33,430 nucleotides of DNA from Deltaproteobacteria bacterium (GTDB lineage Bacteria; Desulfobacterota; Binatia; UTPRO1). The notes under the pieces are model-generated. The model did no database searches and was not told the origin of the DNA. It worked only from the letters and a program-made list of their open reading frames with translations. Below are positions 6,397-33,430 of this stretch, in pieces. The stretch spans positions 1 through 33,430 of the forward strand of contig JAJCZP010000085.1 in NCBI GenBank assembly GCA_029262315.1, written 5' to 3'. Numbering within the stretch: position 1 is the first letter of the stretch; each line of letters begins with the position of its first letter. The translations under genes and the position numbers were made by a program.

Positions 6397-7944
6397 TCAC
6401 TCGCTCGCTGGCTCTGGAAACCGCTCGCGCAGGATTCGTTTCAGAATCTTTCCCGCAGGGTTGCGCGGGATCTCGTCGATGAAGCGAACGTTCTTGGGCA
6501 GCTTGAATCGTGCCAACTTCCCCCGGCAGTGCTCGAGGACGGTTTCCTCGGTGAGCCCGTCGTCCTCCTTCACGACGATGGCTAAGGGAGACTCGCCCCA
6601 TTTCACGCTCGCCTGGCCCACGACAGCGACCTCCCGCACCTGGGGGTGCGCGAGAATCACGTTCTCGATCTCGGCCGGATACACGTTCTCGCCGCCGGAG
6701 ATGATCATGTCCTTCTTGCGGTCTTGAATGTAGATGAGGCCGTCTTCGTCGATGGTGGCCAGATCGCCCGAGTGCAGCCAGCCGTCGCGAACGGTTTCGG
6801 CGGTTGCTTCTGGCCGATTCCAGTACTCCTTCATGATGTGCGCGCCCCGGATGATCACTTCGCCGGTTTCGCCGGACGCGACGTCCGTCCCCTTGGCATC
6901 GACGACGCGGACGTCGGTGTGGAAGAACGGTCGCCCAGTCGAGCCGGCCTTGGTTACGGCTTCTTCGGGGCTGGTGAGGCAAGCCGGACCACAGGTCTCG
7001 GTCAGACCGTACACTTGATGGATCGGTATCCCGCGCGCGGTCCACGCTTCAATGAGAGTCACCGGCACCGGCGCGGCGCCGCTCATGATCCAGCGCAGCG
7101 TCGACAGATCAGTCGTTTCGATCTCGGGGACGAGCAGCATGAAATTCAGCATGGCCGGTACGGCAAGGAGAACAGTGATTTTCTCGCGCTCGATGGTGGT
7201 GAACAAGAGGGTCGGATCGAATGCACGCATGATGACCGACGTCGCGCCTTTGTAGACGTTGCCGGTCAGCGGCGTGAGCGCGCCGACATGGAAGAGCGGC
7301 AGCACGACGATGTAGCGATCGAGGTAGCGGACGTCCGCCGTCGCGCCGCTCGTGATGCATGCCCAAAGGGCCGACGCGTGCGTGTGCACGGCGCCTTTCG
7401 GGAGACCCGTCGTGCCCGACGTGTACATGATGTAGAGTTCGTCGTGCTCCTCGGCGACTGGTTTCGGTTCCACATCGGAGGCGGCGTCTTGTAGGGCGGC
7501 GTAGGAGACGGCGAAAGCGGCGCGGCTGTCGGCGTCGCCGACATGCAGCCATTGGGTGACCGCCGTGCCGTCGGCGCCACGTTGGTGGAGATCGGCCACG
7601 ACGTCCGCGAACTCGCCATCGTAGATCGCAACTGTCGCGCCGCTGTCCTCGAGAATGAACGCCAGTTCGTCGGCGACGAGCCGCCAGTTCAGGGGCACCA
7701 CGATGGCGCCGATCTTCGCGATCGCGAAAAAGCTCTCGACGTACTCAACCCCATTCATCATGAGGAGGGCGACGCGGTCGCCCTTGCGGACGCCGAGCGT
7801 CTGCAGTGCGTGTGCCGTCCGATTCGCTCGGGCGTTTATCTCGCCGTACGTGAAGCGCCGTTCCCGTTCGACCTCGATCACGGCCTCGAGATCTCGGCTC
7901 AGCTGCGCACGTTTTGCCAGCACCAGTCCGATGTTGTTCTTCAT
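6397..7944 (-). CDS. Acyl-CoA synthetase (AMP-forming, ANL superfamily)
   Basis: The 515-residue enzyme should activate a carboxylic acid to acyl-AMP and then to acyl-CoA. Motifs seen in order are the phosphate loop [11 protein letters not shown] starting at Y174, YGLTETCG (adenine and Mg binding), DGWLHSGD (ribose-binding Asp), the hinge [19 protein letters not shown] segment, and the C-terminal catalytic Lys499 in NPAGKIL. Length and motif order are those of long- or medium-chain fatty acid CoA ligases; chain length cannot be inferred. It diverges from pdxH across a 132-bp intergenic region. No good Shine-Dalgarno site precedes the ATG, which lies close to the start of the intergenic space. 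It is clearly distinct from the FadD19-like ligase at 9722-11371. Confidence 0.93.
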
Positions 7945-27348: not shown

Positions 27349-28944
27349 ATGCCCATGGGTGTCCATTCAATGTACATGGACTTCCTCAACCCAGCGGAAA
27401 GAGTCCAAGCCGCGGCGATCGCCGAACTGGCGTACAGCAATCCATTCATGCCCGAGCGCATCACGCACGAGCGGGCTGTGCTGGGCGACGACTTCGCGGC
27501 AGCCGAGGCAGTGTGGACCCTTCGCGCCGGCCGTGCCGTCCAGAACGTCAACCTGGAGTTGCTCCGAGAGCGCGCCGGACGCCTTGCCACGGTGTTGCGC
27601 GAGCGGCTCGTTGCGGGGGCCCGCACCACGGCCAAGGACCTCGAACTCTTCGAGGACGTTGTCTTGTACGTCCTCTACGATCGCCACGAGGGCGCGCTCT
27701 GGGAGCTGATCGACCGCGGCCTCGGACGCGGCCGTGTCGGAGCGTGGGACGCCTTTCGCCGCGATGCCGAGCGGCTCCTCGACGTTCCCGGGATCGAGCT
27801 ACCCTCGCGCCGGGGGCTTCCCGCGCTGTTCGCGGGCTTCTTTCAGGTCCGCCGCGCGTTCCACCATATCTTCTCGGACATCATCGGTGGATCGATGCCC
27901 GCCGCCCGGCTTCGCGCCGCGGTGTGGGAATCGATCTTCACCTACGACATGCGGCGCTATCGGCGTGCGCTGATCGACCGCATGGGCGACATGACGACAC
28001 TCATCGTCGGTCCCTCGGGTACCGGCAAAGAACTGGTGGCGCGCGCGATCGCACTCTCGCGGTATATTCCGTTCGACCCGGATCGCGGACGCTTCGCGGA
28101 CCAGAGCGGCGTGACCCTCCACCCGCTCAACCTCTCTGCGTTGTCGCCAACACTGATCGAATCCGAACTCTTCGGGCATCGTCGGGGCGCCTTCACCGGC
28201 GCGCTTGCCGACCGGGAGGGATGGCTCGAGGAGTGTGGACCGCTCGGTACCGTCTTCCTCGACGAGATCGGGGATGTCGACCCCAGTATTCAGGTCAAGC
28301 TCCTTCGTGTGCTCCAGACGCGAACCTTCGAGCGGCTTGGCGACACCAAGCCGCTCAGTTTTCGCGGTAAGATCATCGCCGCGACCAACCGCGATCTGTC
28401 ACGCGAGATTCAGGTCGGCCGTTTTCGCCAGGACTTCTATTACCGTCTCTGCGCCGACATGATCGAGACACCGTCGCTCGCCGAGCAGCTCCGCGATGCG
28501 CCTGAGGAGCTGCCGCACCTGGTCCTCTTCCTCGTCGAACGTATCGTCGGCGAGGCCGAAGCCGAGGCGTTGGCGCAGGAGGTCGCGGCCTGGATCGAGC
28601 ACCATCTTGGGCTGAGCTACCCGTGGCCGGGCAACGTACGCGAGCTCGAGCAGTGCGTGCGGAACGTCCTCATTCGCCGCGAGTATCGTCCTCCGACCGT
28701 CCCTCCCAGTGGCACTCGCGAGGCGTTTGTCGCCGGCATTGCGAACGGGACTCTGACCGCCGACGAGTTGCTCGCTCGGTACTGTACGCTCGTCTATGCC
28801 GACACGCGCAGTTACCAGGAGACAGCGCGCCGCCTCGGTCTCGACCGCCGCACGGTGCGGAAGAAGGTGGATCTCGCGCAGGTCGAGGCGCTCGACGGAA
28901 GTCTCGCCGCCATCTCCGGTCGCAGGATCTCGCCCAGCTCCTAG
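27349..28944 (+). CDS. Sigma-54-dependent transcriptional activator (enhancer-binding protein)
   Basis: The 531-residue regulator has a central AAA+ domain with Walker A GPSGTGKE (221-228), the sigma-54-contacting loop GAFTGA (280-285), Walker B TVFLDEIGD, and YPWPGNVRELEQC. A Fis-type helix-turn-helix follows near the C-terminus (SYQETARRLGLDRRTVRKK). The N-terminal 190 or so residues are not a recognisable response-regulator, GAF or PAS domain, so the input signal is unknown. The protein is expected to bind upstream of sigma-54 promoters and remodel the holoenzyme. The start may be the ATG at 27349 or the downstream in-frame ATG at residue 10; both lack a clear ribosome site. The LLM gene starts 87 nt after its stop. 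Confidence 0.9.
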   Translation: MPMGVHSMYMDFLNPAERVQAAAIAELAYSNPFMPERITHERAVLGDDFAAAEAVWTLRAGRAVQNVNLELLRERAGRLATVLRERLVAGARTTAKDLELFEDVVLYVLYDRHEGALWELIDRGLGRGRVGAWDAFRRDAERLLDVPGIELPSRRGLPALFAGFFQVRRAFHHIFSDIIGGSMPAARLRAAVWESIFTYDMRRYRRALIDRMGDMTTLIVGPSGTGKELVARAIALSRYIPFDPDRGRFADQSGVTLHPLNLSALSPTLIESELFGHRRGAFTGALADREGWLEECGPLGTVFLDEIGDVDPSIQVKLLRVLQTRTFERLGDTKPLSFRGKIIAATNRDLSREIQVGRFRQDFYYRLCADMIETPSLAEQLRDAPEELPHLVLFLVERIVGEAEAEALAQEVAAWIEHHLGLSYPWPGNVRELEQCVRNVLIRREYRPPTVPPSGTREAFVAGIANGTLTADELLARYCTLVYADTRSYQETARRLGLDRRTVRKKVDLAQVEALDGSLAAISGRRISPSS

Positions 28945-29031: not shown

Positions 29032-30129
29032 ATGGACATCGGCATACTCGGAATCTTCCAGAACTTTCGCGGCGAGCGTGATGATGGCGCGCTGATACGT
29101 GGCGAGATGGAGGTCGCCCTGCTCGCCGAGGCGCTCGGGTTCGACAGCTATTGGGCTCCCGAGCACCACTTCTTCGACTACTCGATGTGTCCGGACAACA
29201 TCCAGTGGCTGACCGGGATCGCGGGCAAGACCAGTCGGATCAAGCTTGGTACCGCGGCGGTGATCATGCCGTGGAACGATCCCTATCGGATCGCGGCGAA
29301 GATGGCGTTGTTCGATCAACAGTCGGGCGGACGTGCGCTGCTGGGCTTCGGACGTGGCCTGTCGCGCCGCGAGTATGCGAGCTTTGGGATTCCGATGGAC
29401 GAGGCGCGCGGGCGTTTCGACGAGGGCACCGAGATCATCGTGCGCGCGCTCGATGGGGGGTACATCGAGGCGGATACGACGTACTTCAAGCAGCCGCGCG
29501 CAGAGATTCGCCCACGCCCAACGGCAAGCTTCAATGACCGGCTCTACTCGATCGGCGTGTCGCCTGATTCGGCAGTGCAGGCGGCGGTCCTCGGATCGCG
29601 CCTCATGGTCCTGGCGCAGCAGCCGTGGGAAGTGTTCCGCGACACGGCCCTCATTCCGTACCAAACGAAATGGCGCGAGCTGCGGGGCACCGAGCCGACA
29701 CCGCCGGTCTGTGGCCAGCTCATGTACTGCGATGCCGATCCTGCCAAAGCAGCCGAGCGCGGTGAGACCTACGTGAAGAATTACTTCGCGTCGGTCGTCG
29801 AACACTACGAGATCGCCGGCAAGCACTTCGAGGGCACCAAGGGCTACGAATACTACGCGTCAGCGGCCGAGATGATCAGCGCCATCGGGCTCGACGATAT
29901 GGCCACCATGTACGCCGGCGTGAACTCCTTTGGTACGCCCGATCAGATCATCGAGAAGATCGAGGAGCAGCGCAGTGTCCTCGATTGCGACGTCGACGTG
30001 CTCGCGATCCCGATGTACGGCGGCATGACCGATGAGGAGGCGCTGGCGTCGATGCGCCTGTTCGCCGAAAAGGTCATGCCGACGCTCCGCGCCACGGCAC
30101 GTACCGCCCCGACTCGTCACACGGCCTGA
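29032..30129 (+). CDS. LLM-class flavin-dependent oxidoreductase (cytoplasmic)
   Basis: The 365-residue protein is a luciferase-like TIM-barrel oxidoreductase. Typical sequence includes FDSYWAPEHHFFDYSM, TSRIKLGTAAVIMPWNDPYR, the GRALLGFGRGLSRREYASFG segment, and a GTPDQIIEKIE helix. There is no signal peptide, unlike the LLM protein at 160-1143. Such enzymes act as FMN- or F420-dependent monooxygenases or dehydrogenases; the substrate is unknown. The start ATG has a strong AAAGGAGA site 8 nt upstream. It lies just downstream of the sigma-54 activator and a possible sigma-54 promoter. The C-terminal 15 residues are a low-complexity Ala/Thr/Arg tail. Confidence 0.9.
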   Translation: MDIGILGIFQNFRGERDDGALIRGEMEVALLAEALGFDSYWAPEHHFFDYSMCPDNIQWLTGIAGKTSRIKLGTAAVIMPWNDPYRIAAKMALFDQQSGGRALLGFGRGLSRREYASFGIPMDEARGRFDEGTEIIVRALDGGYIEADTTYFKQPRAEIRPRPTASFNDRLYSIGVSPDSAVQAAVLGSRLMVLAQQPWEVFRDTALIPYQTKWRELRGTEPTPPVCGQLMYCDADPAKAAERGETYVKNYFASVVEHYEIAGKHFEGTKGYEYYASAAEMISAIGLDDMATMYAGVNSFGTPDQIIEKIEEQRSVLDCDVDVLAIPMYGGMTDEEALASMRLFAEKVMPTLRATARTAPTRHTA

Positions 30130-30375: not shown

Positions 30376-30963
30376 CTACGCGGGCGCCTCGACTATCAGC
30401 AGGAGGCAGCCACCATCGGAGCGGAGCGCGGCATGTTCGGTGCCACGGCCGGCGAGGTGAAAATCACCGCCCGTGATCGTGCGTTCGCCGACGATGAGAT
30501 CTCCTTCGATCACGTAGCAGTGCTCCACCCCCGCGTGGATGTGCGTTTCGGCAACGGCGCCGGGGTGCATGCGGATGAGGTAGCTCGAGGAGCGATCGCC
30601 GCCACCCGTGGCAAGATCCTTCCTCAGGATTCCGGGTTGAATCTCGAGCCACTGGCCCTCGGCGGTACCAACGAAAGCCATCGCGCCGGACATGGTGCCC
30701 ACGGTCTGGTCCGCGGCGCGTCGCCCGAGTCGCCGTACTTCACCGAGGAGGCGAGCGCGTACCGCCGACGATCCGGCAACCGGTGTGGCGGCAAGCGAGA
30801 GATCGTTGGCCACGCTCGTGAACGCAGCAAGCTCATCATTGCAGCGCGAACAACCACCAGCCAGGTGCCGTTCGAACGCCGGGGCCTCCGTGGGCCCGAG
30901 CGCGCCAAGCGCGAACAGTGCGGCATTCTCGCACATCGTCTCGTCTGACTGTTCGCGTGTCAC
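30376..30963 (-). CDS. ChrR-like zinc anti-sigma factor with cupin domain
   Basis: The 195-residue protein pairs with the upstream ECF sigma gene. The N-terminal anti-sigma part has H33-x4-C38-x2-C41, a zinc-binding motif with one more residue than the classic HxxxCxxC. The C-terminal part (about 100-190) is a cupin: ETHIHAGVEHCY supplies His141, His143 and Glu147, and His177 follows. This resembles ChrR, which inhibits its sigma factor and releases it upon oxidative or photo-oxidative stress. There is no transmembrane segment, so it is a soluble cytoplasmic regulator. The GTG at 30963 overlaps the sigma factor's TGA (GTGA) and is preceded by GGGAGC, which supports this start. Ligand and metal are not determined. 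Confidence 0.9.
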   Translation of the reverse strand: MTREQSDETMCENAALFALGALGPTEAPAFERHLAGGCSRCNDELAAFTSVANDLSLAATPVAGSSAVRARLLGEVRRLGRRAADQTVGTMSGAMAFVGTAEGQWLEIQPGILRKDLATGGGDRSSSYLIRMHPGAVAETHIHAGVEHCYVIEGDLIVGERTITGGDFHLAGRGTEHAALRSDGGCLLLIVEAPA

Positions 30964-31559
30964 AGTAGCTCCCGTCCGTGCTGAGCGAGCACCTTCTTCA
31001 GTCGCAGCATACCAAGACGGATGCGCGTTTTGACAGTCCCGAGTGGCATGTCGAGCTCGGTGGCGATCTCGCTGTGGCTAAGCCCCCGGAAGTAGGCGAG
31101 CTCTATCGTTGCTCGTTCGTCGTGACTCAGTCGTGAGAGGGCGCCGATCACTATCCGCCGTCGCTGCCCGAAAGCGGCCTCTTCGTCGGGGCCCTCGGCG
31201 TCGGAGCTCTCCGCCTGCGCGGCCTCGAGCGGCGCCGAACCGGACGGGCGAGAGGTTCTCGAGCGCAGCCGATCGATGGCGCGACTGCGCGCCATCGTGA
31301 GGAGCCACGCGATCGGCGTCCCCCGCGTACGATCGAACGTCGCGGCCTGGCGCCACGCCTGGAGGTACACGTCGAGCGCGACCTCTTCGGCGTGTTGACG
31401 ATCGCCGAGGATGCGGAGCGCCAGCCCCTGTACCGCTGTCGCCGTCCCGTCATAGAGGCTGGCAAGCGCCTGCTCGTCGCCATCGACGACGCGTTCGATC
31501 AGGAGGGAGAGCGCGTCCACGTGGATGCTCCTGACGGCGGTATTGGCGCTGAATGGCAT
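30960..31559 (-). CDS. ECF-family RNA polymerase sigma factor
   Basis: The 199-residue protein has sigma region 2 (from about residue 17, LSLLIERVVDGDEQALASLY, with the HAEEVALDVYLQAWRQ helix and TPIAWLLTMARSRAIDRLRS) and region 4 (about 140-195, LSHDERATIELAYFRGLSHS then GTVKTRIRLGMLRLK). It lacks sigma regions 1 and 3, as ECF factors do. It should direct RNA polymerase to promoters of the CATCC-N17-CGTA kind seen beside it. The ATG at 31559 is used here. A GTG at 31520 (residue 14) has an AGGAG site 7 nt upstream and is a serious alternative. The next gene on the strand is its anti-sigma factor, with a 4-bp overlap. Confidence 0.93.
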   Translation of the reverse strand: MPFSANTAVRSIHVDALSLLIERVVDGDEQALASLYDGTATAVQGLALRILGDRQHAEEVALDVYLQAWRQAATFDRTRGTPIAWLLTMARSRAIDRLRSRTSRPSGSAPLEAAQAESSDAEGPDEEAAFGQRRRIVIGALSRLSHDERATIELAYFRGLSHSEIATELDMPLGTVKTRIRLGMLRLKKVLAQHGRELL

Positions 31560-31579
31560 GACGCTTTGCCTCGTTGGTG

Positions 31580-31607
31580 TCTACGAATCATGGAGTCGGA
31601 TCGGATG
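31580..31607 (-). promoter_or_regulatory. Predicted ECF promoter of the sigma gene (CATCC-N17-CGTA)
   Basis: On the minus strand CATCCG (31602-31607) is followed after 16 nt by CGTAGA (31580-31585). The same motif with the same spacing occurs twice on the plus strand upstream of the DUF4331 gene. It lies 21 nt upstream of the ATG at 31559. It predicts autoregulation of the sigma gene. Confidence 0.6.
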
Positions 31608-31690
31608 TGAGTTCTTTGCCGTGCCCGTGGAAATACGCCTCCGGTCCCGCTGGGCGACGTAACTTCTATCACGCGCGCTCTAGTCGAAAC

Positions 31691-31718
31691 CATCCAGGTG
31701 CAACGGGATCGGCGTACG
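31691..31718 (+). promoter_or_regulatory. Predicted ECF promoter, distal, for the DUF4331 gene
   Basis: CATCCA (31691-31696) is followed by 16 nt and CGTACG (31713-31718). It matches the sigma-gene motif in both boxes and in spacing. It lies 101 nt upstream of the DUF4331 ATG. Confidence 0.5.
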
Positions 31719-31730
31719 ACCGTTTCGCTA

Positions 31731-31758
31731 CATCCGATCGTCCGGCCCCCTCCGTAGT
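31731..31758 (+). promoter_or_regulatory. Predicted ECF promoter, proximal, for the DUF4331 gene
   Basis: CATCCG (31731-31736), 16 nt, then CGTAGT (31753-31758). It is the closest of the three copies to the sigma-gene site (identical -35 box, CGTAG in the -10 box). Transcription would begin about 55 nt before the ATG at 31820. Confidence 0.6.
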
Positions 31759-31819
31759 GTCAGTCGAACGCGGGCCCGCGTCGACACACGACACTCAAAA
31801 ACGAACGGAGGAACACAGC

Positions 31820-33391
31820 ATGAAATACCAACGTCTTGGACGCGGTCTCCTGACCGCAAGCTTGGCACTCGCAATTGCGACCGGGCATGCCTCGGCCGCG
31901 AGTCACCGCGAGGCCCCACTCATGACTCTCGACCCGGGTGCAGACATCAGCGACGTCTACGCGTTCGTCTCGTACGACGAGGACAACGTCGCCCGTCCAC
32001 TCGCAGAACGGAAGGTGACGCTGATCATGAACGTGGTTCCCGGCCAGGAGCCCAGCTCAGGACCGAACTACTTCGGATTCGACGATGAAGTATTGTACTC
32101 GATCAACGTCGACAACGATCGCGATGGTCTCGCGAACGACGTTCGCTACGAGATTCGCTTCGACACGGAGGTCGTAAGTCCGGGGCAGTTTCTGGCCACG
32201 GTGGGCATTCCCCCGGTGACGGCGCTCGAAGGTGCTGGCGCGGCTGGCATGGCGCTCCGTCAACGGTTTCACGTCGTCGAGCTGCGCGACTGTGGTACCG
32301 GGCAACGCGTGTTTCGTTGCAAGACGGAGACCCAGCTTTTCGAAGGGGCCTGGAAGCCGACGGTACCCTCGAACATCGGTCCGGCGACGATGCCCGATTA
32401 CGAGGGGCTGGCGGCGCAAGGCGTCTTCGCCGACGAGGCGACCGACATTCGCGTCTTCGCGGGGCAGCGTGCGGAGACGTTCTCGATTGATCTCGGAGCG
32501 GTGTTCGACACGATCAACCTTCGGACAGAAGGGGGCATCCCCATCCCTGGGGTCCGACCGCCGCTGCCGGTGCAGCGCGCGTCGGAGGACGCCGACGACT
32601 TTTCCGACCCGTTCGGGGTGAATGCGTTCAGCGGCTTCAACGTCAACACGATCGCGATCGAGGTGCCGATCTCGCGGCTGACGGCCGACGGCCTGGTCCC
32701 GACGGCGGACACCGGCACGATCGGAGTGTACGCCAACACGTTTCGGCGCCGGACCACGACGCGGCGGGGCGACCCGGGCATCAACCCACGGCGTGCGATC
32801 GAGCTCCGTGACTCGAAGGGTCGCTACCAGCAGGTGTCGCGTATGGCGAATCCGCTCGTGAACGAGCTGATCATCCGGATCGGACGCAAGGACTTCTGGA
32901 ACGCGACCTTTCCGGAGCGTGAAGAGCTTTTCCTCGACGCCTATCGCGATCTCGACGTGGCGGCTGCGCTGGAGTTGGTTTCCGGGGTGCCCGTGCCTGC
33001 CACGCCGCGCGAGGACGTCGTCCAGCTACTCACCAAGTACGCGGGACAGGACCCGGATCCGAACGTCGGTCCATTCTCTGAGCTTCTCCGTCTCGACATG
33101 ATGGTTCCACCGACCGCTGTCGATGGGATCAAGCGGCTCGGGCCGTTCGCGCACGATGCGGCCATGCCGCCCAATCCGACGCCCGATCCCGCGGGATTTC
33201 CGAACGGACGTCGCCCGAACGACGACGTCACTGATCTGGTCGTACGCGTTGCCGGAGGCGCCAACTACTTCGACAACTTCGTCGGTGACGGTGTGGGTGT
33301 GCAGGAATTGGGCATCACGCCCGCGTTTCCATTCTTGCCGACGCCGTACGATGGCCGCAACCGTCGTCATCGGGATCCGGGCGAGGAGTGA
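31820..33391 (+). CDS. Secreted DUF4331 protein
   Basis: The 523-residue protein has a Sec signal peptide ending ASA (about residue 26). It then begins with the family hallmark ASHREAPL, followed by DPGADISDVYAFVS and DDEVLYSINVDNDRDG. Other family regions are FAGQRAETFSIDLGAVFD, the NVNTIAIEVPISRL segment, QVSRMANPLVNELI, and a C-terminal GGANYFDNFVGDGV segment. The function of DUF4331 is unknown; the protein is expected to be periplasmic or extracellular and mainly beta-structured. The ATG at 31820 follows GGAGGA and starts the signal peptide. The gene is divergent from an ECF sigma factor/anti-sigma pair and has two matching ECF-type promoters, so it is probably the main target of that sigma factor. 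Confidence 0.9.
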   Translation: MKYQRLGRGLLTASLALAIATGHASAASHREAPLMTLDPGADISDVYAFVSYDEDNVARPLAERKVTLIMNVVPGQEPSSGPNYFGFDDEVLYSINVDNDRDGLANDVRYEIRFDTEVVSPGQFLATVGIPPVTALEGAGAAGMALRQRFHVVELRDCGTGQRVFRCKTETQLFEGAWKPTVPSNIGPATMPDYEGLAAQGVFADEATDIRVFAGQRAETFSIDLGAVFDTINLRTEGGIPIPGVRPPLPVQRASEDADDFSDPFGVNAFSGFNVNTIAIEVPISRLTADGLVPTADTGTIGVYANTFRRRTTTRRGDPGINPRRAIELRDSKGRYQQVSRMANPLVNELIIRIGRKDFWNATFPEREELFLDAYRDLDVAAALELVSGVPVPATPREDVVQLLTKYAGQDPDPNVGPFSELLRLDMMVPPTAVDGIKRLGPFAHDAAMPPNPTPDPAGFPNGRRPNDDVTDLVVRVAGGANYFDNFVGDGVGVQELGITPAFPFLPTPYDGRNRRHRDPGEE

Positions 33392-33402
33392 GGCCACGGG
33401 TC

Positions 33403-33430
33403 GGCGTATCCGCGAAGGCGCGGATACGCC
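33403..33430 (+). terminator. Perfect 12-bp hairpin after the DUF4331 gene
   Basis: GGCGTATCCGCG (33403-33414) pairs perfectly with CGCGGATACGCC (33419-33430) around the loop AAGG, 11 nt after the stop. The window ends at its last base, so a following T-tract cannot be seen. Confidence 0.7.

Follow-up and report, generated by a model that had tools for sequence, protein, structure and literature searches.

In the window (the whole stretch of DNA analysed, 33,430 bases), an ECF sigma factor gene and a DUF4331 gene diverge from a gap of 260 bp between their ATG codons (31560-31819), and the same pair of short boxes recurs three times within this gap. This raises the question of whether the boxes are promoters that join the two genes into one regulatory unit. 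A first-pass annotation had proposed such a unit, with a ChrR-like anti-sigma factor, a possible third acidic ORF and DUF4331 as its output. Judged by sequence comparison, the locus is very probably an autoregulated module of a SigK-like ECF sigma factor and a ChrR-like cupin anti-sigma factor, with DUF4331 as its conserved output. The features are collected in Table 1.

Table 1. Features of the locus, with positions in the window, strand and basis of assignment.
Feature	Position	Strand	Basis
Third acidic ORF, 73 aa	30152..30373	-	no Pfam/NCBIfam match; matches inside larger frames
Anti-sigma gene, 195 aa, ChrR-like, N-terminal anti-sigma domain and C-terminal cupin	30376..30963	-	Cupin_7, PDB ChrR
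ECF sigma factor gene, 199 aa, SigK-like	30960..31559	-	Sigma70_r2 and r4, NCBIfam, PDB
Predicted sigma promoter, CATCC-N17-CGTA	31582..31607	-	exact match; relatives' sigma upstream regions share motif
Possible second, distal DUF4331 promoter, CATCC-N17-CGTA	31691..31716	+	exact match; unsupported by comparison
Predicted proximal DUF4331 promoter, CATCC-N17-CGTA	31731..31756	+	exact match; sites in 5 closest orthologues
DUF4331 gene, 523 aa, predicted module output	31820..33391	+	PF14224
Strong hairpin just after DUF4331 stop	33403..33430	+	perfect 12-bp stem; contig end cuts element

The sigma protein has regions 2 and 4 only (PF04542 and PF04545/PF08281), and the anti-sigma gene adjoins its gene. 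Its best PDB chain was SigK (4nqw, E 1.7e-31), followed by RpoE of Rhodobacter (2q1z, 3.7e-23), and the match to SigW (5wuq) was weaker (E 2.6e-13). SigK was also the best NCBIfam match (PRK09646), at 172.2 bits and thus under the cut-off of 226, and the protein contains no cysteine, hence neither Cys 133 nor Cys 183 of SigK. These domains and matches bear out the identification of the protein as an ECF sigma factor. In alignments region 2 resembled that of SigK and region 4.2 that of Rhodobacter RpoE (PLGTxKxRIRL), a combination consistent with a promoter that has ATCC and CGTA in common with the PSPTO_1043 motif described below. The neighbouring protein matched the ChrR cupin-like domain (PF12973 Cupin_7, 1.9e-13) and, weakly and over nearly its full length, ChrR itself (PDB 2z2s, E 1.5e-4). 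Its cupin residues H141, H143, E147 and H177 were invariant across seven aligned anti-sigma factors and stand at the same residue numbers as the four cupin metal ligands given for ChrR (PMC6852236). The ChrR-like designation made earlier thus holds, although the score against TIGR02451 (ECF11/ChrR) was only 31.1 bits, below its cut-off of 124.5. The predicted N-terminal zinc site is incomplete compared with ChrR, whose ligands are H6, H31, C35 and C38: the window protein has H33-x4-C38-x2-C41, one residue longer, and no His near position 6, where C11 might substitute. Among the aligned relatives, the CxxC is absent from the L118 anti-sigma factor.

The third acidic ORF, which had been put forward as a possible module component, does not appear to belong to it. 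It has no Pfam or NCBIfam match and is not conserved: in 98 genomes its other matches lay only within larger open frames of three genomes of the same family (G002, G004 and G005), all lacking a sigma relative at E 1e-20, and no counterpart was found beside sigma genes. It is probably a remnant of a longer gene. Elsewhere in the window, a sigma-54 activator domain protein is encoded at 27349-28944, its first ~200 residues having no Pfam match at E 0.01, and a luciferase-like monooxygenase gene lies beside it (29032-30129).

All three CATCC-N17-CGTA sites noted earlier, one towards sigma and two towards DUF4331, are present and exact. The -10 box of the minus-strand site stands 22 nt from the sigma ATG, with a GAGG ribosome-binding sequence within this distance; the proximal plus-strand site begins 89 bp ahead of the DUF4331 ATG, which has GGAGG upstream. 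An Rfam search of 31400-31900 gave no match at gathering scores. The three sites are the only matches in the entire window, in which 100 dinucleotide shuffles gave a mean of 0.14 matches and a maximum of 1. The description of the pattern as rare by chance was nevertheless too strong without independent evidence. When any 5+4-base dyad with any gap of 14-20 and at least three copies in 260 bp was counted, some triple dyad occurred in 81 of 2000 shuffles of the gap (4%), and 41 of the 252 unshuffled 260-bp tiles from the rest of the window also had one. Since the motif was picked post hoc and shuffles and tiles also yield triple dyads, the repeat alone is modest, suggestive evidence. As we read the sequence data, what is decisive for the case is conservation in relatives, not the repeat itself.

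Relatives of both genes were therefore compared. Sigma relatives gave 62 matches at E <= 1e-20 in 40 of the 98 genomes, and DUF4331 profile matches were present in 32 of the 98. Named genomes supplied seven DUF4331 loci, with Nitrospirae, Nitrosomonas, a gammaproteobacterial MAG and a deltaproteobacterial MAG among the sources; L067 and L073 of G067 are one contig, and G481, whose coordinates agree with those of G067, probably represents an identical assembly. The sigma set comprised 59 genes, the window's own included: 56 of the 62 matches and those of L062, L065 and L068, with six weak matches left out (G017, G024, G037, G044, G060 and G069). The DUF4331 set comprised 28 genes, again including the window's own, which the window protein matched at E 1e-5 within the fetched loci; more distant profile matches were left out.

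A dyad search of 56 non-redundant sigma upstream regions, from which the window's own was excluded, returned ATCC..CGTA as the commonest 4+4 dyad at gaps of 16 or 17, in 25 of 56 regions in the sense orientation compared to 5 of 56 antisense. With gaps of 10-25, the commonest 5+4 dyad, ATCCA-N15/16-CGTA (16 of 56 regions), was the same site. Within 250 bp upstream, NATCC-N16/17-CGTA was present at 26 of 58 other sigma genes (shuffles: mean 0.26, maximum 2) and at 18 of 27 other DUF4331 genes (mean 0.12, maximum 3), and it ranked first of 288 letter-permuted dyads of the same spacing in both sets. Counts peaked at spacings of 16 and 17 and were 0 at both 15 and 18. Upstream of other genes in the same loci the motif occurred in 13 of 298 cases in sense and 12 in antisense, five of the 13 being sigma genes missed by the filter. 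The boxes are thus conserved between orthologous loci; an absence of such conservation had been named in advance as grounds for abandoning the proposal. The exact form, CATCC-N16/17-CGTA, was found in sense within 350 bp upstream of the window's sigma gene and 11 others, and antisense to sigma genes over the same distance only as the window's own two DUF4331 sites. Of the motif as originally written, ATCC and CGTA therefore stand, and the first C and the fixed spacing of 17 do not, leaving a core of ATCC-N16/17-CGTA.

Sigma genes scoring at least 160 bits carried NATCC-N16/17-CGTA in 11 of 12 cases, or 10 of 11 when the window's own is excluded. The two bases after ATCC, which were not used in selection, were always A or G and then A in the 11 sites of these 12 closest sigma genes. 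A cupin-type anti-sigma match adjoins all 11 closest other sigma genes, including that of L062, which has no site. The five closest DUF4331 orthologues (59-70% identical) all had the motif, starting 69-89 bp before the start codon. In the closest of them (L107, 70% identical), the boxes are near-identical (ATCCGATCG...CTCCGTAGTG): where the window has CATCCGATCG...CTCCGTAGTG, the L107 site reads GATCCGATCG...CTCCGTAGTG, and its spacer is shorter by one base. The L107 locus also has a CATCC-N16-CGTA pointing away from DUF4331 (7574-7598). These counterparts are to the proximal plus-strand site. The distal site, which had likewise been read as a DUF4331 promoter, is unsupported by comparison, since the 27 other DUF4331 genes each have at most one sense site within 250 bp, and the tandem is peculiar to the window.

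Of the other genes, 32 of the 58 for sigma, that of L062 among them, and 9 of the 27 for DUF4331, such as those of L063 and L066, had no motif in the 250 bp before their starts. In L102 and L112, where DUF4331 has no site, one stands before the preceding same-strand gene instead. Antisense sites exceeded the shuffle level: with the window's own left out, they occurred in 5 of the 58 sigma regions and 6 of the 27 DUF4331 regions. Three of the latter (L065, L068 and L079) face a divergent sigma gene; the other three (L106, L107 and L110) lack one and are unexplained. Six further sigma genes reached through DUF4331-bearing genomes (L224 and L226-L230) had no site facing sigma, L224 and L229 having one on the opposite strand; the sigma-facing sites of L222, L223 and L225 belong to the set already counted. 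The case is weak in Nitrosomonas and the gammaproteobacterial MAG, where the DUF4331 genes of L063 and L066 have no site, L064 has one at -170, and the sigma relatives have no site facing sigma. When four DUF4331 upstream regions were aligned with MAFFT, the boxes failed to line up. A 15-locus test of DUF4331 upstream regions found no site in G025, G032, G050 and G063, all four without a sigma relative at E 1e-20; it was left uncounted because of poor start choice, the sites of L088 and L089 being missed and no frame being obtained for L086.

The two genes also co-occur. Both were present in 26 of the 98 genomes, DUF4331 only in 6, sigma only in 14 and neither in 52 (Fisher p 1.5e-8); by genus the counts were 19, 4, 6 and 26 (p 5e-6), the p values serving as a guide only because the genomes are related. 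Six of the six DUF4331-bearing genomes reached from the named loci had a sigma relative, only 35-37% identical in two of them; the genome of L062 is outside this count. Of the 26 DUF4331 loci, 10 had a sigma gene within the same fetched stretch, a rough figure because L106, L110 and L117 were cut longer, sigma being already known there, and contig ends shorten several loci. The genes are divergent in L062, L065, L068, L102, L108 and L112 and on the same strand in L106, L110, L114 and L117. In L106 and L110 the sigma gene lies 3' of DUF4331 with other genes between, and the site before DUF4331 is kept; it is also kept in L101, L107 and L111, where no sigma gene was found near DUF4331 in the fetched stretch. 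A DUF4331 protein search of 395 genomes of the phylum returned the own genome only among the matches listed (21 of 395, with at most three candidates scored per genome), which is not evidence of absence because the profile search found DUF4331 in G008, G011, G025, G032 and G034. Two of the loci have two tandem sigma genes, with cupin and RskA anti-sigma matches between and after them (L117, 5679-8411; L124, 5249-7906). In L108 (5437-5947) the sigma gene was matched in two pieces, reflecting a frameshift or an assembly error, and the divergent DUF4331 gene, seen as L079, keeps its site.

To gauge the number of targets, the own genome (5.92 Mb, 298 contigs) was scanned with gene calls from a home-made codon score. 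Exact CATCC-N17-CGTA occurred 40 times compared to 17 for a reversed control. The combined patterns CATCC-N17-CGTA and MATCCR-N16/17-CGTA gave 83 distinct sites, 65 in called genes and 18 between. For seven of the 83, the window's three included, a gene begins on the same strand within 300 bp. A larger regulon was not recovered: of the four non-window sites, L191 and L192 are implausible as promoters, their boxes ending 6 and 1 bp before the start, and the genes downstream of L160 and L175 look, by eye, like a glutamate-1-semialdehyde aminotransferase and a succinate dehydrogenase membrane subunit. Since hardly any other copy of the motif stands where a promoter is plausible, the regulon is probably very small. 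On the best reading of the scan, DUF4331 would be the conserved target and, in the own genome, nearly the only recognisable one.

The identity of this target was upheld by a PF14224 match at E 8e-90 (302.5 bits against a Pfam cut-off of 27, profile positions 2-421), the single match of the family in the own genome. By eye the N-terminus has an apparent signal peptide, and the product thus appears to be exported. The DUF4331 profile had no match among PDB sequences at E 0.1, and an AlphaFold2 model from seven sequences had a mean pLDDT of 39.6 and was not used for a fold search. The 45-nt fold at the hairpin after the stop codon (-26.9 kcal/mol, z -4.5) is a likely terminator. Because the contig stops exactly on the last base of the hairpin, the assembly probably broke there, and with this hairpin 3' of its stop DUF4331 may be a single-gene transcript in the window. 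Elsewhere, a HupE/UreJ_2 or NicO (nickel/cobalt-type) transporter match lay in the fetched stretch of 14 of 26 DUF4331 loci, eight of which also had a TPR protein match; these domain names rest on domain scans of example loci. L106 (5942-12181) and L110 (6096-12351) have the one-strand order DUF4331, TPR-length ORF, NicO, small ORF, sigma, RskA-type anti-sigma, where the small ORF of L106 is NicO-like below the Pfam cut-off and RskA_C was found in the L106 anti-sigma factor, with its homologue in L110. By analogy with such neighbours, DUF4331 may have a metal-related envelope function, which is a hint. The HupE-like genes of the own genome lie near none of its listed motif sites.

The locus has the gene content of a sigma/anti-sigma module, the promoter boxes are conserved at both genes, and sigma and DUF4331 co-occur. 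We infer that transcription starts from the predicted sites and that the anti-sigma factor is inhibitory. The ChrR-like protein, probably soluble as ChrR is, would keep sigma inactive until a signal altered its cupin or zinc-binding part. The freed SigK-like sigma would then direct RNA polymerase to ATCC-N16/17-CGTA promoters, of which one would face its own sigma/anti-sigma operon, giving positive feedback, and one or two would face the divergent gene for the apparently exported DUF4331 protein. By analogy with ChrR, whose family is characterised by a response to singlet oxygen, the signal is possibly an oxidant, and by analogy with the HupE/NicO neighbours in relatives it is possibly a metal.

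It is unlikely that only sigma is autoregulated, with the plus-strand sites due to chance or to another sigma factor of the same class and DUF4331 transcribed mainly from another promoter. ECF promoter classes do overlap, since the promoter of a ChrR-linked sigma factor, TGATCC-N16-CGTA, also contains ATCC and CGTA, and the distal site has no counterpart in relatives. Against this, a DUF4331-facing site recurs in most other DUF4331 genes, including the five closest, no sigma-70-like promoter was found in 31400-31900, and the genome has one match to the window sigma at E 1e-20, namely itself (32 of 42 candidates scored, with more distant ECF factors outside the test). That the boxes are instead operator half-sites for a DNA-binding repressor or activator is very improbable: some operators are also two boxes at a fixed spacing, but these boxes are non-palindromic and mostly face the gene (27 of 59 sigma genes in sense versus 6 antisense, and 19 of 28 DUF4331 genes versus 7, the window's own included). 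They also tolerate only the two spacings of the core motif and match the -35 and -10 elements described for a ChrR-linked ECF factor. A pattern picked by eye in 260 bp could be coincidence, and the shuffles with some triple dyad lean that way, but the dyad search, the upstream counts and the permutation ranking contradict this reading and make it equally hard to credit. The autoregulated module with DUF4331 as its output is thus the preferred reading.

Known systems resemble this module in parts. The -10 box of Bacillus SigW is CGTA, common to the window boxes, but its -35 box is different and SigW is the weaker sigma match. The -35 box of SigK is CCATCC. Though SigK is the best PDB and NCBIfam match of the window sigma, the score lies below the cut-off, the window anti-sigma factor is of the cupin type rather than RskA_C, and the target is DUF4331 rather than mpt70/mpt83; L106 and L110 pair a related sigma with an RskA-type anti-sigma 3' of DUF4331 on the same strand. 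Mycobacterium SigK-RskA is placed in ECF18 by one paper (PMC7509140) and in ECF19 by another (PMC7406223), and the conserved Cys 133 and 183 of SigK, which the window sigma lacks, are given as present in 94% of ECF18 and 56% of ECF19 (PMC7509140). RpoE-ChrR of Rhodobacter sphaeroides (ECF11) and PSPTO_1043/1042 have, like the window, a sigma gene beside a cupin anti-sigma gene, although SigK, not RpoE, is the nearer match of the window sigma. The -35 box had earlier not been matched to a characterised group near this sigma factor; a close precedent is the motif TGATCC-N16-CGTA reported for the RpoE-ChrR-like PSPTO_1043, which has a site upstream of its own gene (PMC5507510). The window shares ATCC and CGTA with it but has ACATCC or CCATCC and a spacing of 17. 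In the excerpt that describes the RpoE-ChrR core regulon, DUF4331 is not named.

Autoregulated ECF/anti-sigma pairs with cupin sensors are already known. A literature search found no paper naming DUF4331, and the link of a SigK-like sigma group to this family may be unreported, although the 2021 ECF reclassification could already list it. Tentatively, and with some doubt, DUF4331 together with HupE/UreJ or NicO transporters and a TPR protein might make up an envelope system that has so far gone unrecognised, that perhaps serves a transition metal and that a SigK-like ECF group controls as its own in several phyla. The anti-sigma factor would then have been exchanged, being a ChrR-type cupin protein in some lineages and of the RskA type in others, with no change in promoter code or in DUF4331 as target. 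The loci suggest that one promoter code and one target are kept with two kinds of anti-sigma sensor. For DUF4331, a family of unknown function, the comparison supplies neighbouring genes, a promoter signature and a sigma factor as its likely regulator, and its role may therefore be approached through what activates that sigma factor.
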